This document shows positions 13,875 to 48,681 of a stretch of DNA of 64,000 bases, in pieces. Position numbers and translations under genes: made by a program. The notes below the pieces were generated by a model. That model was not told the DNA's origin and did not search any database. It worked only from the letters and a program-made list of their open reading frames with translations. The DNA comes from Botryococcus braunii. Lineage: Eukaryota > Chlorophyta > Trebouxiophyceae. Position 1 is the stretch's first letter, and every line of letters begins with the position of its first letter. The stretch covers positions 36,933-100,932 of the forward strand of contig MVGU01001480.1 of the NCBI GenBank assembly GCA_002005505.1, in the 5' to 3' direction.

Positions 13875-14009
13875 TTAGTGCTGAAGTACTGACACATCAG
13901 AGTGACGGATTCTTTTGTCAAAGGAAAGATCTTGGTTTGGTAGACGAGCATATGCTGCAGCGATCTCCTCCCAAACTTTTGTGCGCAAATGGTCCTGTAA
14001 TTGCCATTG
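13875..14009 (-). pseudogene. Possible coding remnant cut by the D0 LTR
   Basis: Reading minus from the D0 insertion gives about 44 sense codons before a TAA, including HLRTKVWEEIAAAYARL, which has the composition of a helical Myb/SANT-like segment. No start is visible because D0 interrupts it. It is short and the resemblance is only by eye; it may be chance. Confidence 0.22.
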
Positions 14010-15634
14010 TGTTGAGTTGTGAACATACATTATAGAATGCCTTGTGCTTTAAGGTGATCTTCAAATGTACATTATTAGGATACGGGTCCACTATCCACAT
14101 AAGGTACCTCCAGACACGTTCGGATGAGGTCTATTTTCGAACATAAGGTACAATCTGATCTAGAATACGCGTTAGTGTGAAAGGACTATTAAAGCTGCGA
14201 TCACCGCATAGTCGAGCAACTGGTTTGGAAAGATACTGGGCACATAAGGATGCCAGTCTTGTTCATGCAGTTGCATGTGTCTAAAGAGCAGACAGTCGTC
14301 AAGGACTGTAGCTGGAGAGGCACGAACTTACGACCTGTCTGCTTGCTTACAGGTGCGGTGACGCAGGGTGTGTATTGGTAATGTGTTCATGTTTGATTGC
14401 TTGTTTGTAAGTGAATCATCTTAGTGTACAATCAAGTCTCTAAAACAGCTAAGGGACGGAGTCTTGATTGAGTATAGGAAGGCACTTGCTTTCAGCCGTC
14501 AGGAGCTTATCCGTGTGTAGATGCTCATTGACAGATCAACATGTAACGGAACTGGTTTGGAAAGATACTGGGCACATAAGGATGCCAGTCTTGTTCATGC
14601 AGTTGCATGTGTCTAAAGAGCAGACAGTCGTCAAGGACTGTAGCTGGAGAGGCACGAACTTATGACCTGTCTGCTTGCTTGCAGGAGACGCCACCAGTGA
14701 ACGACAACCCGTACGGGAACCGTACGGGTTGGCGAATTTCGGTAGGGGTCCCGTACGGGTCGCCTAGGGGGGATACGGCTTACCCGTTAGAATTCATCAG
14801 ATTCTGGTAGCGAAATACGGGTCATACCCAACGGGCTAAGCGGAAGTCTTACGGCTTACCCGGGAAATATTCTATTCTATCGGGACAACTCTAGGGGTCG
14901 ACTTTACATGACTGATGACATTAATGCCGTGATTATGCCGTGATTATGTAGGCCTCTGCGGTTCCTATTGGGGCGATTTGTGGCCTTATTTGCCCGATGT
15001 AGCATGAAAACCGTGTCGAGGAATCCCAAGGTCCAGAAGGGACTCAGCCGAAAGTTTCGGCCCGAAACCCCTTTGGTTCCAAAGTCAAGGCACGTGAGAC
15101 CCATGTGACAGTATTGACAGTTAATGTCGCGCACCGCATTTGCTGGCGAAACATTGATGCAACAAGTTCCACGATAGGATATATCATTCATGTTTACTGA
15201 TTAGTGCATTGGCAAAAGATTGGGGCATCCGGAGTTGATTTTTCTACGTTCGCAGACGCGCCATCCGGAAAAGATTGTCGACGAAAGCAATATGAGGAGA
15301 TGGAAACGAAGCAAGCATATGTCGGGTGTAATAAAGTTCAAATGTGCTGATATTGCTGAAAAATGTGCTTTGGATGCATACGGAATCACTGCTAGTCCTT
15401 CGAGGAACCCTGAGCGGCCTCAAGATAATCGCGGCCTAATTTTGCGCAAATTTCGCAAATTTAGCGACCCATGCAGCTTTGACTTCGACATACGGGTAAC
15501 CCGTATGTTTTCCCACTTCCCTTCAGAGGCGTAGGGGTACGTCCCAGGCGGTGTTCCAGACCCACAGGGGTTTAGCCGTACGGGTTTTCAAGAGGCTGTC
15601 GAACACTGGACGCCACTGCCCATAACCTTTTACA
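14010..15634 (+). repeat. 5' LTR of D0 (14010-14694 and 15609-15634)
   Basis: Aligns with the 701-bp LTRs at 41397, 44683, 47972 and 60474. It has the two R-like copies characteristic of D, the second followed by U5. It carries more point differences than the other D LTRs (for instance ACAG to GCAG at the end of R'), consistent with greater age. Confidence 0.88.
14695..15608. mobile_element. Non-autonomous hAT-like element 2 inside the D0 LTR
   Basis: Flanked by 8-bp duplications GACGCCAC (14687-14694 and 15609-15616), which restore the D-family U5 when the insert is ignored. Termini are inverted: CAGTGAACGACAACC and, from the right, CAGTGTTCGACAGCC. Subterminal CCCGTACGGG motifs occur many times. 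914 bp, with one frame of 104 codons (15220-15534) that resembles no transposase. It differs in termini from element 1, so two families are present. Confidence 0.85.
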
Positions 15635-17157: not shown

Positions 17158-17805
17158 TGTGGATCCTGCAAGATCCAGTTTGTATTTAATATTATAGATC
17201 ACAGAAGATGAGACATACACATGTGTCATCCAAGTAAGTGAATACTTTCAATATCAACACCATTGTATGATGGAAGCAGTTTAACAGGTCAGTCTGATCT
17301 CCTCTTGATCTGAAACAATGCATTCACGATGCCAACACAGATGAGAGTTAATTGAGGTCAGGCTGAGAGTCAGTGTTTGAGACAACAAAGACGTTTCACA
17401 AACACTACGGATTGACTTACACCGGGCAGTATACGACACTGGCCTATCTAACGATTACCTGCAAGATCCAGTTTGTATTTAATATTATAGATCACAGAAG
17501 ATGAGACATACACATGTGTCATCCTGTGCATGTTACACACTTAGTATCTTGCTGGTAATTCACACACGATCACTTGTTTGCAAACCAACGTGCAGCGTAA
17601 ACTGCTTACCAAGTAAGTGAATACTTTCAATATCAACACCATTGTATGATGGAAGCAGTTTAACAGGTCTGCACATTAGCAAGAATATTTCTTAGTTAAA
17701 GTCACCAAACAGCACTTATGGCTGCTGGAATAACGTAAGCGACGAACATGCGCCTCACCAGTCTGATCTCCTCTTGATCTGAAACAATGCATTCACGATG
17801 CCAAC
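17158..17805 (-). repeat. C2 3' LTR, distal part (R, R' and U5)
   Basis: In minus sense it ends with R' lacking introns (from about 17392 down) and U5 TCCACA ending at 17158. Before these, the intron-containing R copy is seen (introns near 17548-17610 and 17665-17760). It shows the same unspliced-then-spliced order as the C1 LTR. Confidence 0.85.
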
Positions 17806-18906
17806 TGTTGGAATTTGTGTACTGTCAGGACAATCCAAGGATGACAAATTTTAACCTGAATAAATTAGCTGTATAGTTGACCATGTGTTCAACTCAAGGG
17901 AAACTCTTTGATAAACAGCCAGTGACATTTATGGCCACAAGTAGTAATGGATAAAGTATATAAGAACATGGTAGAGAAGGACTTTCCTGTTGTTTGTGGC
18001 TATTAAAAATGAGTTTATCCAAATTGTTAATAACGTGATAAACTCAATTGGGTTAAGGGCCAATTTCCAAGGCTCTGAACCTGAACTCTGATACGAATTC
18101 ATGAAAAAGGGCCAGAACAGCGCAAGTCAACGCGCTGGTCTGATAATACTAGGAGCGACTGACCGAAGTCTCAAGCAGTCAATCCGTTGTGTTTGTGAAA
18201 CGTCTTTGTTGTCTCAAACACTGACTCTCAGCCTGATCTCAATTAACTCTCATCTGTGTTGGCATCGTGGATGCATTGTGTCAGATCAAGAGGAGATCAG
18301 ACTGGTGAGGCGCACGTTTGTCGCTTACGTTATTCTAGCAGCCATAAGTGCTGCTTTACTGAATTTAACTAAGAAAGTATTCTTGGTAATGTGCAGGCCT
18401 GTTAAACTGCTTCCATCATACAATGTTGTTGATGTTGAAAGTATTTACTTACTTGGTAAGCAGTTTACGCTACACGTTGGTTTGCAGACAAGTAACCGCA
18501 TTTGAATTACCAGCAAGATACTGATTGTGTAACATGCACAGGATGACACATGCATATGTCTCATCATCTGTGATTTATAATATTAAATACAAACTGGATC
18601 TTGCAGGTAATCGTTAGATAGACCAGTGTCGTATACTACCCGGTGTAAGTCAATCCGTTGTGTTTGTGAAACGTTATGTTGTCTCAAACACTGACTCTCA
18701 GCCTGATCTCAATTAATTCTCATCTGTGTTGGCATCGTGGATGGATTGTGTCAGATCAAGAGGAGATCAGACTGGCCTGTTAAACTGCTTCCATCATACA
18801 ATGTTGTTGATGTTGAAAGTATTTACTTACTTGGATGACACATGCATATGTCTCATCATCTGTGATTTATAATATTAAATACAAACTGGATCTTGCAGGA
18901 TCCACA
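17806..18906 (+). repeat. C1 5' LTR
   Basis: 1101 bp, TGTTGGAATTTG ... GATCCACA. U3 contains GAGTTTATC/GATAAACTC inverted arms (about 18012-18042). Downstream are R with two introns, a donor, R' and a U5 of only 8 bp. Confidence 0.92.
18177..18906 (+). other. C1 5' LTR: intron-containing R, spliced R', U5
   Basis: First copy: E1 about 18179-18304, intron GTGAGG...TGCAG 18305-18396, E2 18397-18455, intron GTAAGC...CACAG 18456-18541, E3 18542-18606, then donor GTAATC at 18607. Second copy without introns: E1' 18650-18774, E2' 18775-18833 (59 bp, as E2), E3' 18834-18898 (65 bp, as E3), then U5 GATCCACA. E1' is one base shorter in this LTR; the 3' LTR copy keeps the first-copy bases there. Both junctions are exact splice products. 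Confidence 0.93.
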
Positions 18907-20154: not shown

Positions 20155-21375
20155 GCATGTTCAAGGTTGCTTGGAATTGATGAATTTAAGGCCCCCTCAC
20201 CATCAGTCAATCTTATCAATCCAGTCAGAGGTCCCCCTCGTCCCAGGAACGCTCCAGGATCCAGGCCACCGGGGATGCCAGAAGATCTGCCTGACAACTT
20301 CAGGGGCTGCTGGCACTGCTTGGAAGATGGACATACCAGAAACGTGTGTCCAAAACTTACAGCTGAGAAAGAAAAAAGGGCTGCCCTCATTTCAGCACGC
20401 AAGAACCAAGCCAATCCAGTTGGAGGTATTGCATTGGGGGACTCTTCTGACTCAGGTAATCCATTCTCTAGATGGGTGGTAGACTCAGGAGCCTCAACAC
20501 ACATATGCAATGATGTTAGACTAATGCAAAACATTCACTGGTATACACAGCCAAAGGGTCTAAATTTGGCAACTGGTGAACATGTTGCACAACGCAAGGC
20601 ATGTGGTTCTGTGTGCTTAGTAGATGAAATGGGGAACATGTGTAAAGTTAAAAACGTAGAATATGTACCTACTGCAATTGAAAATTTGTTGTCGGTCTCT
20701 AGTGCAGTAACAGATGGCATCATGTTTACAAACAATTCACATGGAGAGATTATTAGTATGTACAGTAATGCCTCAAAATTCATCTCTGAAGTCAGAAAAG
20801 TAAGAGGACTGTACTTTGTTTACTGCTTGTGCTGCAAAATTCAGCTCTCACATAGTGTTGGATATGCTCACAAATGCTCTGAATATGATTTGTGGCATCA
20901 ACGCTTAGGACATCCAGGAAGTAAAAACCTGGAACGACTGCAGATTGAGGATATGGTGAAGGGAATAGCTACATCTTTGTCTCCTTGCTTACATGGTCAT
21001 TCACTGTGTGATGTGTGTGTGATGGGCAAGCAGACTAAAGAGAGCTACCAAAGATCCCCAGTATCAGCAACTGAACGTCTTCAGCTGTTGCACTTGGATG
21101 TAATTGGTGAGCTACCAATTCCAGGAGCTGAGGGTGAACGCTACATGCTCACATTTCTAGACGATTACTCTAGAGCTGGTGAATTGTTAGCATTGACTTC
21201 CAAGTCCCAGGTGGGTGGTGCTGTTAAGTCAATCATCCTGTACTTGGAAAATCAGACTAATCACAATGTTAAGGTGGTTAGGTCTGATAGGGGAAGTGAG
21301 TTTGTAAATGCTGACTTGCTTGACTTTTTTCAGTCTAAAGGGATCAGACATGAAACGTCTGCTCCTTATACCCCT
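20155..21375 (+). pseudogene. pol: C1 gag end, protease and integrase start (cut by B)
   Basis: After the TAG the frame holds a CCHC-like knuckle (CWHCLEDGHTRNVC), the protease active site WVVDSGASTHICND, a GAG-pre-integrase motif (LWHQRLGHPGSKNL), an integrase zinc-binding C pair (CDVCVMGKQT) and the catalytic-core parts HLDVIGELP and RSDRGSEFVN. It ends at SAPYTP where the B LTR enters (TSD CCCCT 21371-21375). The next conserved residues QQNG are found right after B at 36404. Confidence 0.9.
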
Positions 21376-22878
21376 TGTTGTATAAACTGATAGGTACGTA
21401 TAGATACGTGATGGCAAACGTACAAGTTACAGGGGCGCTATCAGTTTATCAAGTGGTTTTAGGAAACATTGTATATCTGAATTTCTCCACGTGTGGAGTA
21501 CAAGTAAAAAGATGCGCCTGATTGCGTGTCAAAGGGTATTGTATTATGTTCAGTTAGGTTGATCATATAAGTGACCTCCATGCAGTACAGGTCTTGTACT
21601 AGTGACGGTAAGGTCACAAGGTAAAGACTCCATTGAGTGTGTACGCGTGTATAAGTATGAGATCCCTGGTGCAGCTATAGAGCTACACGTTGGCATAGGG
21701 CCAAGTCAGGGTTGTTTATGTGACCATGCAGTACGGTACAGCCTCTCGAAAGGAACTGTACCGTTACCGCCGGTTACGATCAGAAGGCATAGAAACGCCA
21801 GATCGCGAGCAAGCTTGGCAGTCGATGGGGTGTGGAATGCATCTGGGCTTCGAGCTCCAAGCTGAATAGTGTTTGCTCTGTATTGAAGGACTGCTTGATA
21901 TACTGCTGTCACATTCATTTCAATACAGGTAAGCTTGCGATCGCTGGCAAGGGTAACGGTCGCAGTCGTGTGGCTGCGATCGTAGGCGTTAAGCACATGC
22001 ATACTGATGTTTCTGCTGATTATGAAACATTACATGTGTCTTGTGTTGCAGGAGCTGCATTGCTTGTATGTTACTGTTGTGCGAACAGTAAGGCTATTTG
22101 TGTGTGACGAGTTGCACACTGGTTATAGCAGTGAGTACAGATACGTATAACAAGCATGCTCCTGCTGGTTAAATAACTGTTTTGTTTTGATCTCTGATGA
22201 TCCACATATTGTGCAGATTGGTTGGGAGTAGCCATTAAACTCCTGGGACTGCTGAAGGGCCAAGGGTGTCCTGATCGGAGAGCAGTCGGTACGTACACAT
22301 ATGTGGATAGGTTGCGTGTGTGTTTTATGTGGTTTAGATATATTTTATGGACACTGATGAACCCACAAGTAAATCGTAACGCTCGGATGCAGGCAGATAT
22401 AGACGGCAGTGCGAGCACTGGTCTATATAGACATTGAGATTACTTGGTGGTGTTCACAGGTAAATATACGTAAACCATTTGTAATCAGTCGATGGGGTGT
22501 GGAATGCATCTGGGCTTCGAGCTCCAAGCTGAATAGTGTTTGCTCTGTATTGAAGGACTGCTTGATATACTGCTGTCACATTCATTTCAATACAGGAGCT
22601 GCATTGCTTGTATGTTACTGTTGTGCGAACAGTAAGGCTATTTGTGTGTGACGAGTTGCACACTGGTTATAGCGATTGGTTGGGAGTAGCCATTAAACTC
22701 CTGGGACTGCTGAAGGGCCAAGGGTGTCCTGATCGGAGAGCAGTCGGCAGACATAGACGGCAGTGCGAGCACTGGTCTATATAGACATTGAGATTACTTG
22801 GTGGTGTTCACAGGAAGTGATTCTCCTACGGCATACGCACCGCTTACAGTTACGGCATCCTCCAACTAATACACAACA
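21376..22878 (+). repeat. B 5' LTR
   Basis: TGTTGTATAAACTG ... ACACAACA. A 12-bp inverted repeat ATAAACTGATAG/CTATCAGTTTAT (21382-21393, 21438-21449) lies at the very start of U3. Only a handful of differences to the 3' LTR. Confidence 0.93.
21821..22878 (+). other. B 5' LTR: four-exon R, spliced R', U5
   Basis: First copy: E1 21821-21928 (108 bp), intron GTAAGC...TGCAG 21929-22051, E2 22052-22130 (79), intron GTGAGT...TGCAG 22131-22216, E3 22217-22288 (72), intron GTACGT...TGCAG 22289-22392, E4 22393-22459 (67), donor GTAAAT at 22460. Second copy 22488-22813, 326 bp, equals E1+E2+E3+E4 with all three introns absent, then U5 22814-22878. The last E2 base is A here, but G in the second copy and in the 3' LTR, so it mutated after insertion. 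Confidence 0.96.
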
Positions 22879-22880
22879 AA

Positions 22881-22894
22881 GGTGCTGGGCCCAC
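22881..22894 (+). promoter_or_regulatory. B primer-binding site, divergent
   Basis: GGTGCTGGGCCCAC at the PBS position; it differs from GGTTATGGGCCCAC of the other families at two neighbouring bases that would pair with the anticodon loop. Either decayed or adapted to another primer. Confidence 0.6.
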
Positions 22895-22904
22895 AACTTG
22901 CTGC

Positions 22905-24831: not shown

Positions 24832-25710
24832 TGTTGAATGAATTGGTCAATACTGTACTTAGTGACATCCCCTGTCACATGCCATCAACAGCAGTGTAAA
24901 CTATAGCCGTTATAGCCCTTTATGAACGGTATAGATCATACTCGTACCTCAATGACATAACACGTGACTTGTACGATATGCGTTCTCAATAGACATTACG
25001 TATGGTAGTACTTTAGGATCCCTGCAGTCCGAGCCATCCCTGGGCAGCCCAGGAACGGCTCGGTACTTGTCCGAAGCATGTTGGTATCCTTGACCAACCT
25101 CTACTGTTGGAGAGTGCTGTGTGCTGTTCCTGGAAACGTTGTAGCGTGGACGGTTTTTCCCACAGGCTACGAAGTGACGCTGCCGTCGTGCCATCACTGC
25201 AGGTGTGTTTAGGATTCTCAAAGCCGTTCCAGATATGATTGTGCTCAAACATTCAGACCAGTTAGATATTACTGCTGTGTGCATTGATGAGAGTGCATGA
25301 CGAGAGCGCACTGAATGTTTGACCTCATTGAGACTTATGTTGACGTCCACCGTTGTGGCGGTAAGATAGTTTCACTGTACAAACATCACAAAGAGACCTT
25401 GCTGAGTTACTGATGAACTATTATTGTATTCTAGTGACGTAAAGTAGACATCGCAAGGCCTCTTTGGTGCTGAACTCTGCTATCAGGCAAGGCGTAGTGT
25501 TACGTGGTCTTTAGCAAGAGTGAGAGCAGTTAAGATCATTTGTAAGACTTGTCCGAAGCATGTTGGTATCCTTGACCAACCTCTACTGTTGGAGAGTGCT
25601 GTGTGCTGTTCCTGGAAACGTTGTAGCGTGGACGGTTTTTCCCACAGGCTACGAAGTGACGCTGCCGTCGTGCCATCACTGCAGGTGACGCCGCAAGCAG
25701 AAATGCTTGA
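24832..25710 (+). repeat. F 5' LTR with duplicated R block
   Basis: R copy 1 25065-25202 (138 bp), followed by donor-like GTGTGTTT at 25203. R copy 2 25547-25684 (138 bp) ends CTGCAG, then U5 25685-25710. No intron inside the block. Same order as B and C: first copy plus GT, second copy ending in AG before U5. Confidence 0.92.
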
Positions 25711-26018: not shown

Positions 26019-27641
26019 ATGAAAACTAGAAGCAGACAAGTGATCATGAAAACGAGAAGTAAGCGCACTGCAACGGAGTCTGGATCAGCTGGGTCTGGCT
26101 CCTCCATCAGTGCATCACCCAGCCAGCCAGCAAACTCCACTGCGCAGAGTGGAGAGATGTGCATCGCAATGACGAAAACCGGTGGCGTCGTCACCACGAA
26201 TGTCAAATGTCCAGTGACTCTGGACAGAGAGGGAGTGGAATTTCCACTCTGGGATCTGGCATATGTGGCAGCCTGTGGCCTCAAAAGGTGCAAGGCAGCC
26301 ATTGAAGCTCCAATGCCAGACACAGAGGAGAATGCAGCAGCGCTCCTAATGCTGATTGAGAGCGTCCCCAAGGCGTGGGGTGCCAAGCTGGCTGCAATGC
26401 AAGTGGCAGCCAATGCCTACCAGTGGGTTCGAGAGCGTTTTACTGGAGGGGCAGACCAGGAGGTAACAGCACGCTGGCTGGAGCTCCTACACACCAGCAT
26501 GGGAGAGACAGAAACGTTGGAGGACTACTACAACAGGAAGGTGGCACTCTTCCATGCACTCAAGCGAAATGGGCACTCCATCATGGAGAGAGAAGCCAAG
26601 CTGGCAATCATCAAGGGCCTGCCAGAGGAAGCGAAGGAGACTGGGATGTTCTCCTCATCTGCTGGGAAGGATCTGGAGGGACTGTGGGAGATCATCTCCA
26701 CCACAGCCAAGGGACTGGGCTTCAACGACCAGGTCCCCAGAGTCACCCCTGTGGCCAGGGCAGCCATCACACCAGCCTACTCCACCACACCAGGGACTGC
26801 AAGCCCACAGGAGACCCAAGCTGGAGGCCAGGGGGGCCAAGCTTCATCGACCAAGGTGGAGGGACGGGACCGGCGTGACAACAGGCGCTGCCGCTACTGC
26901 AACAAGCTAGGCCATTTTGAGAGGAACTGCCTCAAGAAGGAGGCGGACGAGAAGATGCAACAGAACCTGCAGCAAGTCATGGCTGCAATGGCCAATCTGC
27001 TTCCGCAATTCCAAAATCAAGCGTCGGCTGCAGTGGCTCGACCTCCGGAGGGCAGCGGGAACGGCAACAACTTTTTCCCCGGGGGATATCCACCACCCTC
27101 TGGTATGTCTGCCATGATTTCTCTGAATGTCTTAACACCAACACGCGTCATGCCAGAAGCGAGAAGTTTTCTGGTGGACAGTGGAGCCACCATCCACCTA
27201 GTCAATGATCTGTCCCTGCTACATTCCCCCACCCTGCACAGAAATCCCATTCCTTTGCATATGGCTACGTCAGATGCCACGGGACAGATAATTGCAACTG
27301 GTTCCCTGTGCTTGAGCAGTGCAGAACAGCAACCCCTGTGGCTTCACAATGTGCATTGTGTTCCTTCAGCTACAGCTAATCTGATTTCAGTGACAGCTGC
27401 TATACGTGATGGGGCTAGTTTTGTGACAGACAGTGTGGGAAGTTACACTGGTATGCGTGGCGCTCAAAACTGGTCTTGTTCAGTTGCACAGAGAAATGGC
27501 CTGTATTTCTTGCAGAAGGTCAGTCCAGTCAGAAACCCTGTCTCTGTGTTTGTTAACACAGCCAGAGCACCAGTCGCTCATGATTGCAGATTGAGAGCAC
27601 TGTGGCACAGTAGACTGGGGCACCCAGGGAGGTTAATATGA
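26019..27641 (+). CDS. gag: F Gag, protease and GAG-pre-integrase
   Basis: ATG at 26019 (MKTRSRQVIMKTRSKRT). Copia Gag motifs: FPLWDLAYVAACGLKRC, VRERFTGGADQEVTARWL, ETLEDYYNRKVALFHALKR. Zinc knuckle CRYCNKLGHFERNC, protease FLVDSGATIHLVNDLSLL, and the GAG-pre-integrase motif LWHSRLGHPGR, at which the frame stops. The downstream frame starts in the same place, -1 relative to this one. Relatives (D3) have no break here, so this is probably one indel rather than programmed frameshifting. Confidence 0.88.
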   Translation: MKTRSRQVIMKTRSKRTATESGSAGSGSSISASPSQPANSTAQSGEMCIAMTKTGGVVTTNVKCPVTLDREGVEFPLWDLAYVAACGLKRCKAAIEAPMPDTEENAAALLMLIESVPKAWGAKLAAMQVAANAYQWVRERFTGGADQEVTARWLELLHTSMGETETLEDYYNRKVALFHALKRNGHSIMEREAKLAIIKGLPEEAKETGMFSSSAGKDLEGLWEIISTTAKGLGFNDQVPRVTPVARAAITPAYSTTPGTASPQETQAGGQGGQASSTKVEGRDRRDNRRCRYCNKLGHFERNCLKKEADEKMQQNLQQVMAAMANLLPQFQNQASAAVARPPEGSGNGNNFFPGGYPPPSGMSAMISLNVLTPTRVMPEARSFLVDSGATIHLVNDLSLLHSPTLHRNPIPLHMATSDATGQIIATGSLCLSSAEQQPLWLHNVHCVPSATANLISVTAAIRDGASFVTDSVGSYTGMRGAQNWSCSVAQRNGLYFLQKVSPVRNPVSVFVNTARAPVAHDCRLRALWHSRLGHPGRLI

Positions 27642-30600
27642 GGCGACTGCAGTCTGAAGATTTGGTCCTGGGCATCCCTGTATCTCTCTCCCCTTGCGCA
27701 AACTGTCACTCTTCGTGTGAAGCGTGCATTCAAGGAAAGCACAGTCGTCCCCCTTTTGGAACCAGTTCCAGAGCAGCCACTGAGCCCCTTGAGAGAATTC
27801 ATTTGGACACAGTTGGCCCCATCTCCCCTACAGCTATTACTGGGGAGCGCTTCTTTGTCACGATTGTGGATGAGGCTACGCACTACGTCATAGCCCTGGC
27901 AGTAAAAACCAAGGATGCAATCAGCAGTGCAGTCAGAGACCTCCTGATTTTTTGGCAGAGGCAGTTGAACCGCTCTGTTAAGTGCATTCGTACTGACAGG
28001 GGGACAGAATTCCTCAACAGTACATTGAAGGGTTTCTGTACGCAGGAGGGAATTAAATTTGAGACCTCTGCAGCATACACGCCTCAGCAAAATGGCGTTG
28101 CTGAACGGATGAACCGAACAATCAAGGAGAAGGCCAGAACACTCATGTTGCATGCAGCTGCCAAACAGTCACTCTGGAAGGAAGCAGTGGAGACAGCCTG
28201 CATCCTGTACAATATGGGACCTGTGACTGGACGTGACAAGACGCCTTATGAAGCCTTCCATGGGGTAAAGCCCGATGTATCCCTGCTCAGGACTTTTGGC
28301 TGTCTAGCACATGTGCACATACCTGATCACCAAAGGGGAGTGTTTGAGTCTAAGACCTCCCCTGGTCTCTTCACAGGGTATTCCAGTGTGTCAAAGGCAT
28401 ATAGAATTTATATGGGAAACGGGATTTGGAAAGAAAGCAGAGATGTTACCTTTCTGGAGCACTTAAGGGGCGCAGACAGAGTGGGGCTTAGCACCATGTC
28501 TCCTGTGAGTCCAAATGCAGTCCAGCAGCCCTTTGCCTTGCCTTTTGTACAACAGGAGGGCCAGCAGTCCTTGGGTCAGTTGTCTTTTTGGGACTCAGAT
28601 GATCCTGAGCCTCTCTGCAACCGAGAGGTCAACGTGCAGCAGTCCGGACCTGACTCCCCCTGTGCAACCACCCCCTGTGCAACTACCCCATGTGCAATCA
28701 ACCCCTGTGAGAATTCTGAGACTACAAGTGTCAACGTGGACGGGGAGCCCACTTCCTCGGAGCTGAGCCATACGCAGTCCGGCCACAGCTGGTCCGTACT
28801 CGGACACATGGAGAACCTGGCGCGAGGAGGCGAGGAGACCAAGTCACACATGCAACGTTTGAATAATGTGCAAGAATGTGTTCGAATGGAAGTTGGGGCC
28901 ATGGGTGTCCGAGGGCAAGACGGGCTGACCCGGCAGCAACGGTATGATCAGAGAGTAGCAGCACGTGAGACTGCAGCTGAGGTCACTGTGGAACATGATG
29001 GAGATGTGAGTGATGGAGAGAATAGGAGAATGTCAGAGGCCATTTGCCCAGGGGAAGCAACGGAAGCTCAGCCTAATGGACAGGACTTGGCCAGGCTGGA
29101 GGGCATGTCTGATCATGTAAGCGCTGAGAGTGAGGCAAGAGAGGTCAGTTTGGAGATTTCCAATCAGACACTTGATGGACAAAGGGAGTCTTCAGATGGC
29201 CAGGCTCTGCGTGCTTGTGAGGGACACACTGGGGAGTCACAGGTGTGTTGTGAGAGTACAAGCGTGGATGAGAGAGACACCACTGCAGGGTGTCGCACAG
29301 TGCCAGATTATGCTGCGCCTTTGAGTGATGAGTGCGTTTGGGACATGACGAGTGATGTAAGACCCAGATTGAGTGGAGCAGCATGTGAATCCTCCAAGGA
29401 GAGAAAGCTGCAGACACCTCCAGAGTGGGAGAGAGTCAGAGAGGTGTGTAACGCAGTAACCTCGAGCGAAAGAGTAGTGGAAGCACGTGCGTGTGAGCCT
29501 AGAGAGGATAGCCATGTTGTGCATGATCACAATCTGAATCCTGTAAAGGGTAAGATACCTGGGGTGAGGTGGTCCAAGGTGCCAATCCCTGGAAACCTCA
29601 GGGAGGCGCAAAGATCCCCTCAGTGGGAATTCTGGCGCCAGGCAATGCAAGAGGAGCAAGATTCTCTTGATGCGCACGAGGTGATGGAGTACGTTGAGAG
29701 ACCCAGGGGACACAAGGTGATCCCTGTGCATTGGATCTTCTCTGTGAAGACTGATGCACATGGGAACGTGTTGAGATTTAAGGCTCGGCTTGTAGCCCAG
29801 GGCTGTAGACAGATTCCTGGAGTTGATGTAGATGAGGTCTTTGCACCTACCAGTAGCTATGGGTCCAGGAGGACTTTGCTAGCAACTGCTGCAGCAAAGA
29901 ACATGGAAATTCACCAGGTGGATATAAAGACCGCCTTTTTGAATGGTGAATTAGAGGAGGAGGTGTATGTGACACAGCCTCCTGGATTTGATAATGGCAA
30001 CCCCAACATTGTGTGCAGACTGCGTAAGGCCCTTTATGGCCTGAAGCAGGCTCCCAGGGCTTGGCACAAGACCCTGAATGAGAAGCTGCTGAGTATGGGA
30101 TATGAAGTGTGTAAGAGCGATGCGGGAGTTTACATAAAGAGACACGAGGATGGGGAGCTGTCATACATGCTTGTGTATGTTGATGATCTTTTGATTGTGG
30201 CAATGGGTGCGGAAGAGATAGAATGGGTGAAAAAGGAGCTGTTGGCAAGCTTCAAGATTCATGACCTTGGTGAAGTCAAGGACTTCTTGGGCTGCCAGAT
30301 CCTGAGAGATAGAGAGAATCGGTGCTTATCACTGAGCTGCGTGCCTAAGATTGATGCACTGTGTGAGAAGTTTGGGGTGAGTGCTGAGTCACGTACAGTC
30401 GATACTCCCATGAGTAAAGACTTTGTGATGTCTGGGATGCCGCAGGTTACAGTGGGTGAGACCAGCTTTGGGTCTGGGACTCCACTGCCTCCCGGGCATA
30501 GATATTGTGAGCTTGTTGGGTCTCTGTTGTATATTGCTAATACAACTCGACCTGATATAGCTCAGGCTGTGGGTGTTCTGTCCCGTTACCGGAACGCTCC

Positions 30601-31162
30601 CACCACTGCCCACATGAATGAGGGCTTGAGGGTATTGAGGTATCTTCAGTCTACTCGAGAGTGTGTCTTAGTGCTGGGAGGGAAAGGGCCTGTGTTAGAA
30701 GGTCATGTTGATGCAGATTATGCTGGCGATATTGACAGCAGGCATTCTACCTCGGGATATGTGCTATCAGTGTTTGGCAGTGCTGTGGTCTGGGGTAGTA
30801 AGAAGCAACACTCAGTTGCTACCTCCACTGTGGAGGCAGAATTCATGGCAACCAGTCTGGCTATTAAGGAGCTTAACTGGCTGCGTGGGTTCATGGAGGA
30901 AATCGGAACTCCTCCTTGGTCAGTGAAGCTATACTGTGACAATCAGGGGTGCATTGCTAACCTGAAAAACCCACTGTATAGCAAGTATACTAAGCACATT
31001 GCAGTGTGCTTCCACTTTGCACGTGAAGCTATTGCAAAGGGGCAGGTTACACTCTGCTATGTGGAGTCTGCAAGGAACAAGGCAGACATGCTGACAAAGC
31101 CTCTCGCTCGCCCTGCCTTCCAGATGCACAGGCGAGGGTTTGGACTTGTGAAGATGACATAG
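27638..31162 (+). CDS. pol: F Pol: integrase, RT, RNase H
   Basis: 1174 codons without stop. Integrase: HHCC-type cysteines (CHSSCEACIQGKH), catalytic D in HLDTVGPIS, RTDRGTEFLN, and E in QQNGVAERMNRT. A hydrophilic linker of about 350 residues contains TTPCATTPCAINPC repeats. [64 protein letters not shown]. RNase H: HVDADYAGDIDSRHSTSGY, STVEAEFMA, YCDNQGCIANL, ending NKADMLTKPLA. All catalytic residues are present. Apart from the frameshift at about 27630 this is the most complete Pol in the window. Confidence 0.93.
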   Translation: MRRLQSEDLVLGIPVSLSPCANCHSSCEACIQGKHSRPPFGTSSRAATEPLERIHLDTVGPISPTAITGERFFVTIVDEATHYVIALAVKTKDAISSAVRDLLIFWQRQLNRSVKCIRTDRGTEFLNSTLKGFCTQEGIKFETSAAYTPQQNGVAERMNRTIKEKARTLMLHAAAKQSLWKEAVETACILYNMGPVTGRDKTPYEAFHGVKPDVSLLRTFGCLAHVHIPDHQRGVFESKTSPGLFTGYSSVSKAYRIYMGNGIWKESRDVTFLEHLRGADRVGLSTMSPVSPNAVQQPFALPFVQQEGQQSLGQLSFWDSDDPEPLCNREVNVQQSGPDSPCATTPCATTPCAINPCENSETTSVNVDGEPTSSELSHTQSGHSWSVLGHMENLARGGEETKSHMQRLNNVQECVRMEVGAMGVRGQDGLTRQQRYDQRVAARETAAEVTVEHDGDVSDGENRRMSEAICPGEATEAQPNGQDLARLEGMSDHVSAESEAREVSLEISNQTLDGQRESSDGQALRACEGHTGESQVCCESTSVDERDTTAGCRTVPDYAAPLSDECVWDMTSDVRPRLSGAACESSKERKLQTPPEWERVREVCNAVTSSERVVEARACEPREDSHVVHDHNLNPVKGKIPGVRWSKVPIPGNLREAQRSPQWEFWRQAMQEEQDSLDAHEVMEYVERPRGHKVIPVHWIFSVKTDAHGNVLRFKARLVAQGCRQIPGVDVDEVFAPTSSYGSRRTLLATAAAKNMEIHQVDIKTAFLNGELEEEVYVTQPPGFDNGNPNIVCRLRKALYGLKQAPRAWHKTLNEKLLSMGYEVCKSDAGVYIKRHEDGELSYMLVYVDDLLIVAMGAEEIEWVKKELLASFKIHDLGEVKDFLGCQILRDRENRCLSLSCVPKIDALCEKFGVSAESRTVDTPMSKDFVMSGMPQVTVGETSFGSGTPLPPGHRYCELVGSLLYIANTTRPDIAQAVGVLSRYRNAPTTAHMNEGLRVLRYLQSTRECVLVLGGKGPVLEGHVDADYAGDIDSRHSTSGYVLSVFGSAVVWGSKKQHSVATSTVEAEFMATSLAIKELNWLRGFMEEIGTPPWSVKLYCDNQGCIANLKNPLYSKYTKHIAVCFHFAREAIAKGQVTLCYVESARNKADMLTKPLARPAFQMHRRGFGLVKMT

Positions 31163-31187: not shown

Positions 31188-32066
31188 TGTTGAATGAATT
31201 GGTCAATACTGTACTTAGTGACATCCCCTGTCACATGCCATCAACAGCAGTGTAAACTATAGCCGTTATAGCCCTTTATGAACGGTATAGATCATACTCG
31301 TACCTCAATGACATAACACGTGACTTGTACGATATGCGTTCTCAATAGACATTACGTATGGTAGTACTTTAGGATCCCTGCAGTCCGAGCCATCCCTGGG
31401 CAGCCCAGGAACGGCTCGGTACTTGTCCGAAGCATGTTGGTATCCTTGACCAACCTCTACTGTTGGAGAGTGCTGTGTGCTGTTCCTGGAAACGTTGTAG
31501 CGTGGACGGTTTTTCCCACAGGCTACGAAGTGACGCTGCCGTCGTGCCATCACTGCAGGTGTGTTTAGGATTCTCAAAGCCGTTCCAGATATGATTGTGC
31601 TCAAACATTCAGACCAGTTAGATATTACTGCTGTGTGCATTGATGAGAGTGCATGACGAGAGCGCACTGAATGTTTGACCTCATTGAGACTTATGTTGAC
31701 GTCCACCGTTGTGGCGGTAAGATAGTTTCACTGTACAAACATCACAAAGAGACCTTGCTGAGTTACTGATGAACTATTATTGTATTCTAGTGACGTAAAG
31801 TAGACATCGCAAGGCCTCTTTGGTGCTGAACTCTGCTATCAGGCAAGGCGTAGTGTTACGTGGTCTTTAGCAAGAGTGAGAGCAGTTAAGATCATTTGTA
31901 AGACTTGTCCGAAGCATGTTGGTATCCTTGACCAACCTCTACTGTTGGAGAGTGCTGTGTGCTGTTCCTGGAAACGTTGTAGCGTGGACGGTTTTTCCCA
32001 CAGGCTACGAAGTGACGCTGCCGTCGTGCCATCACTGCAGGTGACGCCGCAAGCAGAAATGCTTGA
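31188..32066 (+). repeat. F 3' LTR
   Basis: 879 bp, matches the 5' LTR throughout as far as compared by eye. Confidence 0.94.
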
Positions 32067-32071
32067 CTTAC

Positions 32072-34358
32072 ACATGTTGAGTATGTCCCGACAGCGACTG
32101 ATAACCTCTTGTCCGTGTCAGCTGCTGTCAAAGATGGATGCACATTCTCTGTAAATGAAAAAGGGGAATATGTGGCTGTCATGTGCCAAGCAAATGAGTT
32201 CATGTGTGACATTGAACCGAAAGGGAGCTTATACTTCCTGTCACACAAAAGTGGGCTCTGTGCATGGGGAGGGGCGGCTGCACTTTTAGTAACTACACGA
32301 GAAGAGACAGAGTTGTGGCACAAAAGGTTGGGACATCCGGGAGTTGTATGCATGTCAAGAATGTTGAGAGAGCAGATTGTGAATGAGGTTAAAGGAAGTG
32401 TGGGTGAAGTAGAAAGAGTTGTGACTCACTGTGACGGTTGTATACGGGGGAAGCAGACTAGGACTCCCACGCCTTCCTCCACTGCGGCTGAGTCTACTGA
32501 GAGACTTCAGCTGGTCCATATGGACGTAGTGGGAGAGCTGCCTGTGGCTGGGCTGAATGGAGAGAAGTATATGCTGGTCCTTTTGGACGACTTCTCGCAT
32601 AGAATCCAAATCAGGACGTTCAGTTCAAAGACTGAGGTAGGAGCACTCGTTCAAGAGGTCCTCTTGAATTGGGAGGTGTCAACTAAATGTAAAGTTGGCA
32701 CTGTTAGGACGGACAGAGGTACTGAATTTGTAAATCGCGAGCTGGCAGATTTCTTTGCCAGAAAGGGGATCGCGCATCAGACCTCTGCACCGTACACGCC
32801 TCAACAAAATGGCAAGGTAGAGCGTGTAAACAGGGTAATCAAGGAACGAGTGAGGGCTCTCCTCTTCACAGCAGAGGCAGGGCCTGAACTATGGGCTGAG
32901 GCAGCACACACTGTGGTACGACTGCTGAATGTGAGTGCCGTCAGTGGAAAGGAGTCTTGTCCGTATGAGGCATTCTATGGCAAGAAACCCTCAGTTGCTC
33001 ACCTGAAGGTTTGGGGTTGTTTGGCTTATGTGAAGCTGCCTGATAGGCAGCTGTCAGCACTTGGTCCGCGCTCAGTTGCGGGCATGTTTGTGGGATATGA
33101 AACAGGATCCAAGGCGTATCGGATCCTGGTGCAAGGCAAGGTGATGGTGAGTAAGGATGTGAGATTTATTGAAGATAAGTTGGGCTATCCGGTTGTAACT
33201 CCACCCACACTACAACCTGAAATGAGGGTTGAAGAGTTGTTTCATGATGAAGAGGAGGTACCTGAGGTTTCCCTGGAAGAGGCAATTGATGCCCCGCGCG
33301 AAATTGCGATAAACCCGGAATTACGAACGGACGATATGCATGAAGTCATGAGGCGTGCACGGGAGGTGCTGCAGCAGCTTCCTGCAGAACTTCCAGCCGG
33401 GGAAGTGACTGATGAGGGAAATGGTGATGGTGAAAGTCAAGGGCAGGCAAGTGAGAGAGACGAAGAGCAGCATGATTATGAGGAGAATGCAGAGAGGGGA
33501 AGAGGTGGTGGGCGTTACGAATTGAGAGAGAGAGTTGGCCCGCCAGATAAGTATGTTCCTGGGGCATATCACACGCAAGTAAAAGCCCATGCAGTAGTAG
33601 TTGAGGAGGCAAAATTGAAAGCATCAGAGTTGTCCATTCCAAAACACATTGGAGAAGCGCTTGCCAGTCCTCAAAAGGAGTACTGGAAGCAAGCCATGCA
33701 AGAGGAGCTAGATGCTATTGAAGAATGTGACACGTATGAGGTGGTGAGGAGGCCAGAGGGAGCAAAAGTGATTCCTCTGATTTGGGTGTTTGCCTTAAAG
33801 ACGGATGAATATGGCGATGTCATCCGGTTTAAGGCAAGACTCGTAGCGCAAGGTTGCAGGCAGGTAGAAGGTATAGATTGTGATCAAACCTTTGCACCTG
33901 TCAGCACCCATGCATGTAGGAGAGTGTTGCTGAATATTGCAGCAACAGAAAATCTTGAAATCCACCAAGTGGATATCAAGACGGCATTTCTCAATGGAGA
34001 ATTAGAGGAGGAGGTGTATGTAACGCAGCCTCCTGGTTTCTCTAATGGTGATAAAAAGGAGGTGTTTCGCTTGAGGAAGGCTTTGTATGGACTCAAGCAG
34101 GCACCTCGGGCATGGCACAAAAGGCTCTCCAAGGATCTTGGAGAGATGGGTTTCAAGGCATGTAGGAGCGACCCGGCCTTATTCTTGGACTCCGGAAGGG
34201 GTGAAGACCGGGCGTTCATTGTTACCTATGTGGATGATTTGCTGATCATCTGCAAGAGTGGTGAGAGAGTGTCAGAAATCAAGGGTGAGTTGAAAGCAAG
34301 ATTTAAGGTTCACGACTTGGGGGAAGTGAAGAATTTCCTCGGAAGTGAAGTCAGGCGT
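32072..34358 (+). pseudogene. pol: B integrase and RT, deleted at its C-terminal part
   Basis: Continues from EYVPTATDNLL: GAG-pre-integrase LWHKRLGHPG, zinc C pair (CDGCIRGKQT), integrase core HMDVVGELP, RTDRGTEFVN, TPQQNGKVERVNR (catalytic E). [54 protein letters not shown]. After [13 protein letters not shown] the text jumps to the RNase H sequence [16 protein letters not shown] in another frame; relatives have about 160 residues there. The lost part includes the first RNase H aspartate (DADYAGD in F). Confidence 0.88.
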
Positions 34359-34749
34359 GTTCATGCTGAATGGGGGAGCAGTGTCGTGGGGAAGTAAGAA
34401 GCAACAGTCAGTTGCTACTTCCACTGTCGAGGCGGAGTTTATTGCGGCGAGCCATGCAATAAAGGAAGGAGTATGGCTTGGGAGCTTGTTGGAGGAGCTC
34501 GGTCAGTCTGTGTCTGGTGTAGAATAAAGAATGGACAACATGGGCTGTATTGCAAATCTGCAAAACCATGTATTGTCCAAGTACACCAAGCATATTAGCG
34601 TGTGCTATCATCAAGCGAGGGAAAAGGTAGCATGGGGGCAGATCACGCCGGTGTACGTCAACACAGAGGAAAATGTGGCTGACATTTTTACAAAGCCGTT
34701 GGCCAGTCCAGCATTTCTCAAGCATCGTGACAGCTTGAGAATGGGTTAA
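34345..34749 (+). pseudogene. pol: B RNase H C-terminal remnant
   Basis: [20 protein letters not shown], then a TAA at about 34526-34528, then MDNMGCIANLQNHVLSKYTK and NVADIFTKPLA to a stop at 34749. Fits the RNase H end of the other copia copies. The MDNMGC in place of CDNQGC also lacks the usual Cys and Gln. Confidence 0.85.
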
Positions 34750-34893: not shown

Positions 34894-36398
34894 TGTTGTA
34901 TAAACTGATAGGTACGTATAGATACGTGATGGCAAACGTACAAGTTACAGGGGCGCTATCAGTTTATCAAGTGGTTTTAGGAAAACATTGTATAACTTGA
35001 ATTTCTCCACGTGTGGAGTACAAGTAAGAAGATGCGCCTGATTGCGTGTCAAAGGGTATTGTATTATGTTCAGTTAGGTTGATCATATAAGTGACCTCCA
35101 TGCAGTACAGGTCTTGTACTAGTGACGGTAAGGTCACAAGGTAAAGACTCCATTGAGTGTGTACGCGTGTATAAGTATGAGATCCCTGGTGCAGCTATAG
35201 AGCTACACGTTGGCATAGGGCCAAGTCAGGGTTGTTTATGTGACCATGCAGTACGGTACAGCCTCTCGAAAGGAACTGTACCGTTACCGCCGATTACGAT
35301 CAGAAGGCATAGAAACGCCAGATCGCGAGCAAGCTTGGCAGTCGATGGGGTGTGGAATGCATCTGGGCTTCGAGCTCCAAGCTGAATAGTGTTTGCTCTG
35401 TATTGAAGGACTGCTTGATATACTGCTGTCACATTCATTTCAATACAGGTAAGCTTGCGATCGCTGGCAAGGGTAACGGTCGCAGTCGTGTGGCTGCGAT
35501 CGTAGGCGTTAAGCACATGCATACTGATGTTTCTGCTGATTATGAAACATTACATGTGTCTTGTGTTGCAGGAGCTGCATTGCTTGTATGTTACTGTTGT
35601 GCGAACAGTAAGGCTATTTGTGTGTGACGAGTTGCACACTGGTTATAGCGGTGAGTACAGATACGTATAACAAGCATGCTCCTGCTGGTTAAATAACTGT
35701 TTTGTTTTGATCTCTGATGATCCACATATTGTGCAGATTGGTTGGGAGTAGCCATTAAACTCCTGGGACTGCTGAAGGGCCAAGGGTGTCCTGATCGGAG
35801 AGCAGTCGGTACGTACACATATGTGGATAGGTTGCGTGTGTGTTTTATGTGGTTTAGATATATTTTATGGACACTGATGAACCCACAAGTAAATCGTAAC
35901 GCTCGGATGCAGGCAGATATAGACGGCAGTGCGAGCACTGGTCTATATAGACATTGAGATTACTTGGTGGTGTTCACAGGTAAATATACGTAAACCATTT
36001 GTAATCAGTCGATGGGGTGTGGAATGCATCTGGGCTTCGAGCTCCAAGCTGAATAGTGTTTGCTCTGTATTGAAGGACTGCTTGATATACTGCTGTCACA
36101 TTCATTTCAATACAGGAGCTGCATTGCTTGTATGTTATTGTTGTGCGAACAGTAAGGCTATTTGTGTGTGATGAGTTGCACACTGGCTATAGCGATTGGT
36201 TGGGAGTAGCCATTAAACTCCTGGGACTGCTGAAGGGCCAAGGGTGTCCTGATCGGAGAGCAGTCGGCAGATATAGACGGCAGTGCGAGCACTGGTCTAT
36301 ATAGACATTGAGATTACTTGGTGGTGTTCACACGAAGTGATTCTCCTACGGCATACGCACCGCTTACAGTTACGGCATCCTCCAACTAATACACAACA
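34894..36398 (+). repeat. B 3' LTR
   Basis: Preceded by the polypurine tract at 34881-34893. Exon-intron layout as in the 5' LTR shifted by 13520 (E1 35341, donor GTGAGT at 35651, second copy 36008-36333). The AG before U5 is AC here (36333), so the final acceptor is lost in this LTR. Confidence 0.93.
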
Positions 36399-38979: not shown

Positions 38980-40081
38980 TGTTGGAATTTGTGTACTGTC
39001 AGGACAATCCAAGGATGACAAATTTTAACCTGAATAAATTAGCTGTATAGTTGACCATGTGTTCAACTCAAGGGAAACTCTTTGATAAACAGCCAGTGAC
39101 ATTTATGGCCACAAGTAGTAATGGATAAAGTATCTAAGAACATGGTAGAGAAGGACTTTCCTGTTGTTTGTGGCTATTAAAAATGAGTTTATCCAAATTG
39201 TTAATAACGTGATAAACTCAATTGGGATAAGGGCCAATTTCCAAGGCTCTGAACCTGAACTCTGATACGAATTCATGAAAAAGGGCCAGAACAGCGCAAG
39301 TCAACGCGCTGGTCTGATAATACTAGGAGCGACTGACCGAAGTCTCAAGCAGTCAATCCGTTGTGTTTGTGAAACGTCTTTGTTGTCTCAAACACTGACT
39401 CTCAGCCTGATCTCAATTAACTCTCATCTGTGTTGGCATCGTGGATGCATTGTGTCAGATCAAGAGGAGATCAGACTGGTGAGGCGCACGTTTGTCGCTT
39501 ACGTTATTCTAGCAGCCATAAGTGCTGCTTTACTGAATTTAACTAAGAAAGTATTCTTGGTAATGTGCAGGCCTGTTAAACTGCTTCCATCATACAATGT
39601 TGTTGATGTTGAAAGTATTTACTTACTTGGTAACCAGTTTACGCTACACGTTGGTTTGCAGACAAGTAACCGCATTTGAATTACCAGCAAGATACTGATT
39701 GTGTAACATGCACAGGATGACACATGCATATGTCTCATCATCTGTGATTTATAATATTAAATACAAACTGGATCTTGCAGGTAATCGTTAGATAGACCAG
39801 TGTCGTATACTACCCGGTGTAAGTCAATCCGTTGTGTTTGTGAAACGTCTTTGTTGTCTCAAACACTGACTCTCAGCCTGATCTCAATTAACTCTCATCT
39901 GTGTTGGCATCGTGGATGCATTGTGTCAGATCAAGAGGAGATCAGACTGGCCTGTTAAACTGCTTCCATCATACAATGTTGTTGATGTTGAAAGTATTTA
40001 CTTACTTGGATGACACATGCATATGTCTCATCATCTGTGATTTATAATATTAAATACAAACTGGATCTTGCAGGATCCACA
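38980..40081 (+). repeat. C1 3' LTR
   Basis: 1102 bp, preceded by the polypurine tract AAGGGGAAGAT. Same two-copy structure as the 5' LTR, with donor GTGAGG at 39479 and both R copies agreeing at the position that differs in the 5' LTR. Confidence 0.92.
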
Positions 40082-40565
40082 CCAACACAGATAAGAGTTA
40101 ATTGAGGTCAGGCTGAGAGTCAGTGTTTGAGACAACAAAGACGTTTCACAAACACTACGGATTGACTGCTTGAGACTTCGTTCAGTCGCTCCTAGTATTA
40201 TCAGAGCAGCGCGTTGAATTGCGCTGTTCTGGCCCTTTTTCATGAATTCGTATCCGAGTTGAGGTTCAGAGCCTTGGAAACTGGCCCTTATCCCAATATG
40301 AGTTTATCACGTTATTAACAATTAGGATAAACTCATTCTTAATAGCCACAAACAACAGGAAGGACATTCTCTACCATGTTTTTTTCATTAATACTTATGG
40401 CCAAAAGGCCACTGGCTGTCTATCAAAGAGTTTTCCTTGAGTTGAGCACATGGTCAACTATACAGCTAATTTATTCTTGCTATAATTGTCATCTTTGGAT
40501 TGTCCTGATAGTACACAAACTCCAACAATCTTCCCCTTGTACTTTCAGGACATGCCAACACTTGT

Positions 40566-41396
40566 TTACTGCATTCCCAACTTGTTACGATGCCTTTCAA
40601 AGACAGTGGATGCTAGTGGCTTTGTGAACATGTCAGCTACATTTTCAGTAGTTGGCACATATGTAGGGTCAATTTGACCCCAAGCCGCCTTCTCTCGTGC
40701 ATGATGATAACTCACACTAATGTGTTTAGTGTGTTTTGAGACCATGTGATTTCTCAGGTTTGACACACACCCCTGATTATCACAATACATGGTTACACAT
40801 GTGATCTCTTCTCCCAACTCACAGAGCATACTTCTTACCCACATGGCTTCCTTCACTGCTGCACTCACAGCAATGTATTCAGACTCCACAGTGGATGTTG
40901 CTATGGAAGTTTGCCTCTTACTTGACCAGGATACAGCAGATCCGTTTAGTAGAAACACAAACCCAGTTGTGGATTTTCTACTGTCCAGATCACCTGCAAA
41001 ATCTGCATCCACAAAGCATACCAGTTCATTTCGATTTGATCCAGTATACTTAATCCCCATGTATTTGGTGCAGTTGAGGTACCTCAGTACTCTAATTGCT
41101 ACATTCCAATGGCATGTTGTTGGCTGTCCTCTAAATCTGCTCAACATCCCCACAGCTTGAGAAATATCAGGCCTTGTAGTTGTTGACAAATACTGTAGGG
41201 AACCAATTAATTCTAAATACCTGTGACCTTCTGTTAAGGGAACTCCATATCCAATCTGCTCTCCAGTCATCCCTTTAGGAGGCTCAGGCATTTGAGTAGG
41301 CAAGAAGGAACCTGACATGGGTGTATCCACCTCCTTCCCTTGATCAGGCAGCCCATATTCTCCCACTAATTTCTCGATTTTTAGAACATTGGTCAT
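40566..41396 (-). pseudogene. pol: C2 pol, C-terminal RT and RNase H fragment
   Basis: Open on the minus strand. Upstream it is cut by the D1 LTR, whose first bases give a spurious MYVHNST start. Visible are the end of the RT palm region (VDTPMSG, then TTRPDISQAVGML), the RNase H start CFVDADFAGDLDS, WSSKRQ with TSTVESEYIA, MYCDNQGCVSN and the C-terminal TKHISVSYHHAREK, ADMFTKPLA. About 275 codons, very close to the C1 pol end (38101-38941). A displaced fragment, not an expressed gene. Confidence 0.88.
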
Positions 41397-48672: not shown

Positions 48673-48681
48673 GGTTATGGG
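48657..48681 (+). other. Hairpin over the D3 U5/PBS junction
   Basis: CCCATAACC, loop TTTTACA, GGTTATGGG: a perfect 9-bp stem whose 3' arm is the PBS and whose 5' arm copies the tRNA anticodon arm. Present in D0, D1, D2 and D3. Confidence 0.92.

Follow-up and report, generated by a model that had tools for sequence, protein, structure and literature searches.

The window analysed here is a 64,000-nucleotide stretch of a Botryococcus braunii contig (MVGU01001480.1) that holds several LTR retrotransposons. Reading the 5' LTR of one of these, element B, we found the order U3-R-spacer-R'-U5, in which R consists of four exons and three GT-AG introns and R' is an intron-free copy of the same exons. 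The features of element B are as follows.

21376..22878, plus strand: B 5' LTR, sitting in the copia integrase open reading frame of element A, with target duplication CCCCT
21376..21819, plus strand: U3, the putative promoter side, ending in a pyrimidine before the A of R
21820/21-21928, plus strand: R exon 1, with the A at 21820 as predicted transcription start
21929..22051, plus strand: intron 1, 123 bp, GTAAGC...GCAG, missing in R'
22052..22130, plus strand: R exon 2
22131..22216, plus strand: intron 2, 86 bp, GTGAGT...GCAG, missing in R'
22217..22288, plus strand: R exon 3
22289..22392, plus strand: intron 3, 104 bp, GTACGT...GCAG, missing in R'
22393..22459, plus strand: R exon 4, with CACAG at its end, then the putative outer donor GTAAAT
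22460..22813, plus strand: putative outer intron (spacer plus R'), GTAAAT...CACAG, predicted from its boundaries
22480..22484, plus strand: TGTAA, candidate poly(A) signal, its first base 7 nt 5' of the R' start
22487/88-22813, plus strand: R', spliced copy of exons 1-4, 326 bp by the bounds of the first-pass annotation
22814..22878, plus strand: U5, 65 bp
22881..22897, plus strand: candidate primer-binding site GGTGCTGGGCCCACAAC, with GGTTATGGGCCCA or GGTCATGGGCCCA in some other B copies
34894..36398, plus strand: B 3' LTR, layout as in the 5' LTR
35339-35449, 35569-35650, 35736-35809 and 35912-35980, plus strand: R exons of the B 3' LTR, located by BLAST, with R' from about 36006

The first-pass annotation had described three GT...AG introns (123, 86 and 104 bp) in the first copy that were removed precisely from the second, and its coordinates were confirmed. 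Its wording of an exact spliced copy holds for the absence of the introns but not for every base, with R and R' of the 5' LTR identical at 324 of 326 positions and the two mismatches, placed by eye, falling at 22130 (in R) and 22752 (in R'). The spacer between R and R' in this LTR is 27 bp, and the first one or two bases of both copies are ambiguous because 'CA' opens each of them. The B 3' LTR is near-identical to the 5' LTR outside R' exon 2 and the R' end; its R' exon 2 (36113-36193) carries three private changes, and the final CAG of its R' reads CAC.

Evaluating the remainder of the window, we found the R/R' layout in all five copia LTR families recognised there (A, B, C, D and E), located as follows.

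17806..18906, plus strand: A 5' LTR, R exons 18177-18305, 18396-18456 and 18541-18607, R' about 18648-18899, target duplication CCAAC
38980..40081, plus strand: A 3' LTR, layout as in the A 5' LTR
24832..25710, plus strand: C 5' LTR, single-exon R 25065-25205, R' 25547-25687, target duplication CTTAC
31188..32066, plus strand: C 3' LTR, layout as in the C 5' LTR
14009..14694, plus strand: D-family LTR, R 14218-14353, R' 14550-14685
from about 41391, 44677, 47966 and 60468: further D-family LTR copies
R 43482-43623 and R' 43161-43302, minus strand: E-family R and R', with a second copy at 46451-46913

A gypsy element in the window (LTRs 50966-51156 and 56918-57108) has no R/R' duplicate. The host site of element A is itself an inverted A-type LTR (17158-17805 plus 40082-41397, minus strand), 5-7% diverged and with R/R' exons of its own; in its 17158-17805 part, exons 2 and 3 are identical between R and R' and 5-6% off the other A LTRs.

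Elements A, B and C each possess two near-identical LTRs with a 5-bp target duplication, as listed, and their scanned frames hold RVT_2, integrase core, gag_pre-integrase and copia gag domains, with no match to a retroviral RT or env among these frames and only copia-type domains present. Integrase (rve) precedes RVT_2 in frames 27614-31162 and 32067-34397, and in element A rve lies in 20155-21390 and RVT_2 in 36617-38941. The primer-site stretch is GGTTATGGGCCCA after the A, C and D LTRs and GGTGCTGGGCCCA after the window B LTR; the former is similar to the internal initiator-tRNA primer-binding site of Drosophila copia, and the B candidate GGTGCTGGGCCCACAAC is a putative initiator-tRNA match. 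By eye, the D-type U5 and primer site form a potential inverted repeat, GCCCATAACC...GGTTATGGGC (window 48655-48680, and after R' in locus L094), such that the D-type primer site may be hidden in a hairpin.

To place the layout in its genomic context, we searched the 176 Mb assembly (989 contigs) and found the spliced exon 1-exon 2 junction of B at 138 places (up to 3 mismatches), with 0 for a reversed-pattern control, so that chance or assembly error as the source of the B layout is ruled out. Sixty B LTR loci were fetched, 40 by similarity to the window LTR and 20 picked for the spliced junction, and thus not a random sample. A complete R-spacer-R' was present in 51 of the 60, and one further locus (L044) is a standard B LTR with a tandem exon 3-4 duplication inside R'; two carry an extra unit, two, belonging to one element, read U3-R(spliced)-U5, and four are interrupted. 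Comparisons between R and R' used the 51-LTR set, leaving out L044, L049, L050, L051, L052, L057, L058, L059 and L068; L051 is cut within R', and L059 runs into Ns. L050 and L052 (C163:86100 and 117500) show B spacer-R'-U5 after a common foreign sequence ending in exon 4, within a rearranged region of contig C163.

Extending the reading to other families, we examined 11 copia LTR representatives in eight sequence groups (A, B, C, D/D2, E/E2/E3, F, G and H), all of which are built as R-spacer-R'-U5. Introns occur in R of three groups (two in A, three in B, two in H), all seven being GT-AG and all seven missing from R', and R is a single exon in the other five groups; a gain of the introns in R after duplication was rejected, as it would need seven gains in R and zero in R'. 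The spacer before R' measures 21-47 nt in A, B, F, G and H and 178-341 nt in C, D, D2, E, E2 and E3. An R/R' pair was likewise present in 10 of 10 stretches fetched 0.5-2.3 kb past copia RT domains elsewhere in the genome, four of them family E and one (L101) in the orientation opposite to the RT. Among 30 RT loci, whose 3' side was mostly too short for an LTR, pairs of known kinds appeared in L089, L094 and L096. Rather than a peculiarity of B, the R-spacer-R'-U5 layout is found in each copia LTR family readable here.

A host light-harvesting protein read from the assembly has 99% identity to a protein labelled jgi/Botrbrau1, as expected for Botryococcus braunii or a very near relative. LTR elements are described as predominating among the class I elements of the B race of Botryococcus braunii (PMC11286282). 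Our genome search with RVT_2 gave 2658 first-look copia RT candidates, of which 150 were scored, and many of these 150 share one identical score and an open frame of 1805 aa, suggesting that one family has recently expanded. Relatives in viral contigs were sought and none found, and the plasmid matches numbered five, all distant (under 60% identity).

Seeing the same layout throughout, we assessed whether R' tracks R across genomic B copies, the check proposed with the original reading. Aligning the 51 LTRs, we counted a mean of 2.04 substitutions between R and R' within an LTR and 5.09 between LTRs, with 0 of 5000 permutations as low, and 14 of the 51 LTRs possess no R-R' substitution at all. 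At 12 informative sites the derived base stands in both copies in 84 cells, in R only in 1 and in R' only in 8, where cells are LTRs rather than independent events and the sites were chosen by total count, mildly favouring shared changes; all 8 R'-only cells belong to one chimeric element (L033/L034, below). A two-base insertion near the start is common to R and R' in L053-L056, L063 and L064. Between families the pattern recurs, with R' of D and D2, and of E and E2, 73-76% alike and R and R' inside each 97-100% alike.

The first-pass annotation had also held that R' is renewed at each transposition, which bears on how old the likeness of R and R' is. For 11 B pairs confirmed by target duplications, from which the chimera was omitted, the LTRs differ from each other at 10 of 5247 positions outside R, at 11 of 3584 in R and at 10 of 3586 in R', and R differs from R' within LTRs at 25 of 7168. 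With all 17 non-chimeric pairs, the counts are 114/8089 outside R (swollen by Ns or foreign DNA in U3 of L063 and L039), 20/5540 for R-R, 16/5544 for R'-R' and 44/11078 for R-R' within LTRs. Flanks of 5 bp match in 12 of 18 B pairs, five being unreadable and one (L020/L024) mismatched; the latter pair was dropped from the clock because L020 lies between two internal regions. L020 (C41:403900-406100) has internal sequence on both sides, an AAGAT flank before it and a primer site after it, and is part of a tandem element array sharing LTRs on contig C41. Since the R-R' difference is about that between LTRs, R and R' were near identical at insertion and have been drifting since; R' is thus about as young as the insertion, in agreement with its proposed renewal.

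These counts bear directly on the possibility that R' originated a single time, from spliced RNA or through an ancient duplication, and that gene conversion at the DNA level has since maintained its likeness to R, with no role for R' in replication. Conversion tracts confined to the shared exons could homogenise the copies without moving introns, and R and R' do seem to recombine occasionally (L049 and L068), but no homogenising after insertion is visible in the clock, and post-insertion conversion of R and R' is both unneeded and unseen. Conversion also fits poorly with a layout and boundary signals common to eight sequence groups, and with a left junction of R' that varies between elements and is common to both LTRs of one. 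On this balance we regard it as improbable.

The left junction deserves separate description. In B, one or two variable bases separate TGTAA from the A of R', and the base directly before this A, scored in 33 B LTRs (one per presumed element), is a G 25 times and a C 8 times. With that base omitted from tree building, it shows six changes on the tree, the most of 1212 columns, and its left neighbour four. Within elements the junction is the same in both LTRs of 12 of 12 target-duplication-confirmed pairs (the chimera included). Of five more pairs, presumed on the basis of their spacing, four agree likewise, the exception being L063/L064, whose target duplication is unreadable. Being variable between elements and shared by the LTR pair, the junction points to a left end of R' made at reverse transcription, and on this sequence pattern that end seems to be re-made there. 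The C before the A of R' is the same base that precedes the start of R in the genome; as a guess, the G would be a copy of the cap.

We then compared the boundaries of R and R' among the 11 representatives. The first base of R is an A after C or T in all 11, and a pyrimidine followed by A is the initiator pattern of transcription start; a TATA-like box near -30 of R is clear in 3 of 11 only, namely F (TATAAATAG), G and D. Both signals are consistent with the start at R that was originally postulated. R ends in CAG directly before GT, and R' ends in CAG before a G, followed by U5, in 11 of 11, which favours the outer intron of the first reading, predicted to run from the GT after R to the acceptor-like CAG ending R'. 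As a donor, the GT after R matches weakly in some families (GTGCGG in D, GTGTGT in C and G). In C and H the sequence following R' likewise opens with GT, which makes the outer boundary less informative there.

Were transcription to start at R' instead, R' would serve as the usual terminal repeat, and R would be a one-time copy that had acquired introns. A leader from R' would need no splicing, and R' adjoins U5 as a normal R does. Yet the only template of R' would then be R' itself, which would keep it from tracking R as the 84, 1 and 8 cells require; the short spacers of A, B, F, G and H leave little promoter room and carry TGTAA, the TATA-like boxes of D, F and G lie upstream of R, and introns would need to have entered R seven times and R' never. 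Taken together, this makes a start at R' most improbable, and we continue with a start at R.

TGTAA begins 4-8 nt 5' of R' in 11 of 11 representatives, the chance of finding it at one of six start positions being about 0.007 per representative, with the span chosen post hoc. In all 11, the GT after R lies upstream of it, which places a splice donor-like site before the putative LTR poly(A) signal. UGUAA is a chlorophyte poly(A) signal with a peak 17 nt before the cleavage site and a range of 10-30 nt (PMC1868727). Combining this spacing with the position of TGTAA places the predicted RNA end at about +3 to +25 in R', and the terminal redundancy is therefore probably only a few to about 25 nt. 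With so short a redundancy, the whole of R' would be the product of strand transfer rather than the region that anneals. The strand-transfer part of the earlier interpretation is retained in this form, with a terminal redundancy shorter than it had assumed.

Drawing on what the DNA itself displays, namely the layout, the exact absence of introns, the boundaries, the tracking, the near-identity at insertion and the unstable junction common to LTR pairs, we propose a cycle for which we infer the transcription start, the outer splice, the cleavage site and the order of steps. Transcription would begin in the 5' LTR, at the A that opens R. Splicing would take out the R introns together with the outer intron, which comprises the spacer and R' and stretches from the donor behind R to the CAG at the end of R', such that genomic RNA would open with R(spliced)-U5-PBS. 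In the 3' LTR, cleavage of the RNA would follow TGTAA and fall a short way into R'. Minus-strand strong-stop cDNA, made of U5 and spliced R, would move from the 5' end to the 3' end via the short redundancy, and synthesis would then run on through the spacer, the intron-bearing R and U3. The new LTR would again read U3-R-spacer-R'-U5, with R' rewritten from the spliced leader in each cycle, and the end of the last exon would play two roles, as donor side in R and as acceptor in R'. The outer splice is proposed because R' ends at the donor sequence and abuts U5, and because a leader retaining the spacer would add a unit each cycle, extra units being present in 2 of 60 loci.

We judge this cycle very probably the best explanation of the sequence, and the overall interpretation of the first-pass annotation is thus upheld at that level, with a shorter redundancy and a wider distribution. 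Points against it are that the same introns must leave the RNA at its 5' end yet stay at its 3' end (all 56 B LTRs whose R is readable ahead of a spacer keep theirs), the U5 type of the chimera L033/L034, the TATA-like boxes in 3 of 11 representatives only and the weak donors in some families. In a variant of the same cycle, the RNA would end before R' with end-to-end joining of cDNA, or the outer intron would be spliced in part of the RNAs. This could accommodate the one or two variable bases between TGTAA and the A of R' in B, and the choice of start site or copying of the cap could account for the C or G directly preceding R', but chlorophyte UGUAA mostly lies 10-30 nt before cleavage, which puts the end inside R' (PMC1868727), and we hold the variant to be very improbable.

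Several B LTRs depart from the usual form. In the element flanked by the target duplication CGGAG, the R' copies of both LTRs, L033 and L034, have six substitutions and one inserted base in common that are not in their own R. The exon-1 haplotype of this R' together with intron 1 matches exactly at five other genome places. Compared with the intron-bearing R of L110, an element at one of these five places, the two R' copies show 3 and 2 substitutions and no indel; compared with their own R, they show 7 and 6 substitutions and an indel. Being nearer to the R of L110 than to its own, this R' apparently derives from the leader of a different element or from a recombinant parent. The U5 of L033/L034 is not of the L110 type, so that the template would have to have been switched a second time, within exons 3-4, or the donor would have to be an element other than those read.

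L057 and L058 (C48:236800-239000 and 242900-245100) read U3-R(spliced)-U5 in both LTRs, which are 99.9% alike over 840 bases and have a CCTCC duplication; this fits strand transfer onto R instead of R', or an exchange between R and R', and is equally explained by recombination, so that it favours neither. L049 (C163) reads R-spacer-R(spliced)-spacer-R'-U5, as does L068 (C21) except that its middle unit keeps intron 3. They may represent a leader in which the outer intron was kept, and an R/R' exchange by recombination accounts for them equally well; splicing intermediates as the sole reading were rejected, a crossover of R' with R in exon 4 or exon 3 giving the same structures. For L068 recombination is favoured because the extra unit is in one LTR only and the partner, L067, differs. 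Searching the genome for further forms, we found 0 matches (up to 3 mismatches) for an R that lacks intron 1 but retains intron 2 and, with no mismatch allowed, 1 match (L049) for exons 3 and 4 joined and followed by the spacer.

Two kinds of LTR had been named beforehand as contradicting the original reading. An R that had lost its introns while keeping the spacer and R' was sought in the 60 B LTRs and none was found. The nearest cases among the 60 are L057/L058, with a spliced R only, and the extra units of L049 and L068, that of L068 having intron 3, and each of these can be accounted for by the proposed cycle or by recombination.

A second U5 type (GGGATACG...) stands on B-type R/R' in L037, L043, L046, L047, L055, L056 and L061-L064, with an ordinary B U3 in L043, L046 and L047. 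U3 and U5 modules seem to be reshuffled among B LTRs.

Comparison with known systems shows where these elements depart from their relatives. A standard LTR consists of U3-R-U5 with one R. Our elements resemble Ty1/copia (Pseudoviridae) in RVT_2, in an integrase core upstream of RT, in gag domains and in 5-bp target duplications, but differ from its single R in having the leader exons twice, first as the transcribed block (with introns in three groups) and then as its spliced copy. Every family read has R and R' between U3 and U5, with the exception of the B element L057/L058 and its single spliced R. By their proteins the elements are ordinary copia, yet they are without one defining trait, the single R.

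In foamy viruses the spliced RNAs are subgenomic, whereas here the genomic leader itself would be spliced and its spliced form stored in the LTR. The likeness to foamy viruses is in a splice donor before the LTR poly(A) signal, both being putative here; there, U1 at the donor suppresses 5' polyadenylation, and RNA structure in the 3' LTR blocks U1 (PMC3694450). By analogy, such a 3' LTR structure blocking U1 could explain intron retention here. The resemblance to Retroviridae and spumaviruses is one of analogy, not membership, given the copia-type domains and no retroviral RT or env match in the scanned frames. Ogre of Medicago and EVADE of Arabidopsis are likewise LTR elements with functional introns, which serve subgenomic RNAs by alternative splicing, and the excerpted text of the source mentions no LTR-leader intron with a spliced duplicate as found here (PMC12786077). 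In Triticeae, template switching with abnormal strand transfer yields composite elements and chimeric LTRs (PMC1950507), events that are rare there, whereas in every family read here the LTR normally carries the duplicate. We found no published LTR of this layout in the literature searched, mostly outside subscription journals, which is not proof of absence.

An LTR element faces two problems: its poly(A) site has to be passed over in the 5' LTR yet used in the 3' LTR, and any intron of a reverse-transcribed leader is expected to be lost within one cycle. The layout offers an answer to both that is visible in the sequence, with a spliced leader beside an intron-bearing one and a poly(A) signal inside an intron. 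The likely benefit would be that a signal lying downstream of the donor, within the intron, is suppressible in the 5' LTR and usable in the 3' LTR. These elements would be misread by annotation pipelines that score the LTR duplicate as a tandem repeat or predict a gene from the R exons. Each insertion may document in the genome how its leader was spliced, which start site was chosen and how the strand was transferred, such that first-strand transfer could be studied from DNA alone. We consider it likely that the whole copia assemblage of this alga uses an obligatorily spliced genomic leader, with the LTR comprising a leader gene, intron-bearing in several families, and its cDNA rewritten at every insertion, an exon end that is both donor and acceptor, a poly(A) signal in the outer intron, and introns spliced at the 5' end and protected at the 3' end. 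If R' is rewritten at each jump, splicing would be a working step of the element's copying cycle.
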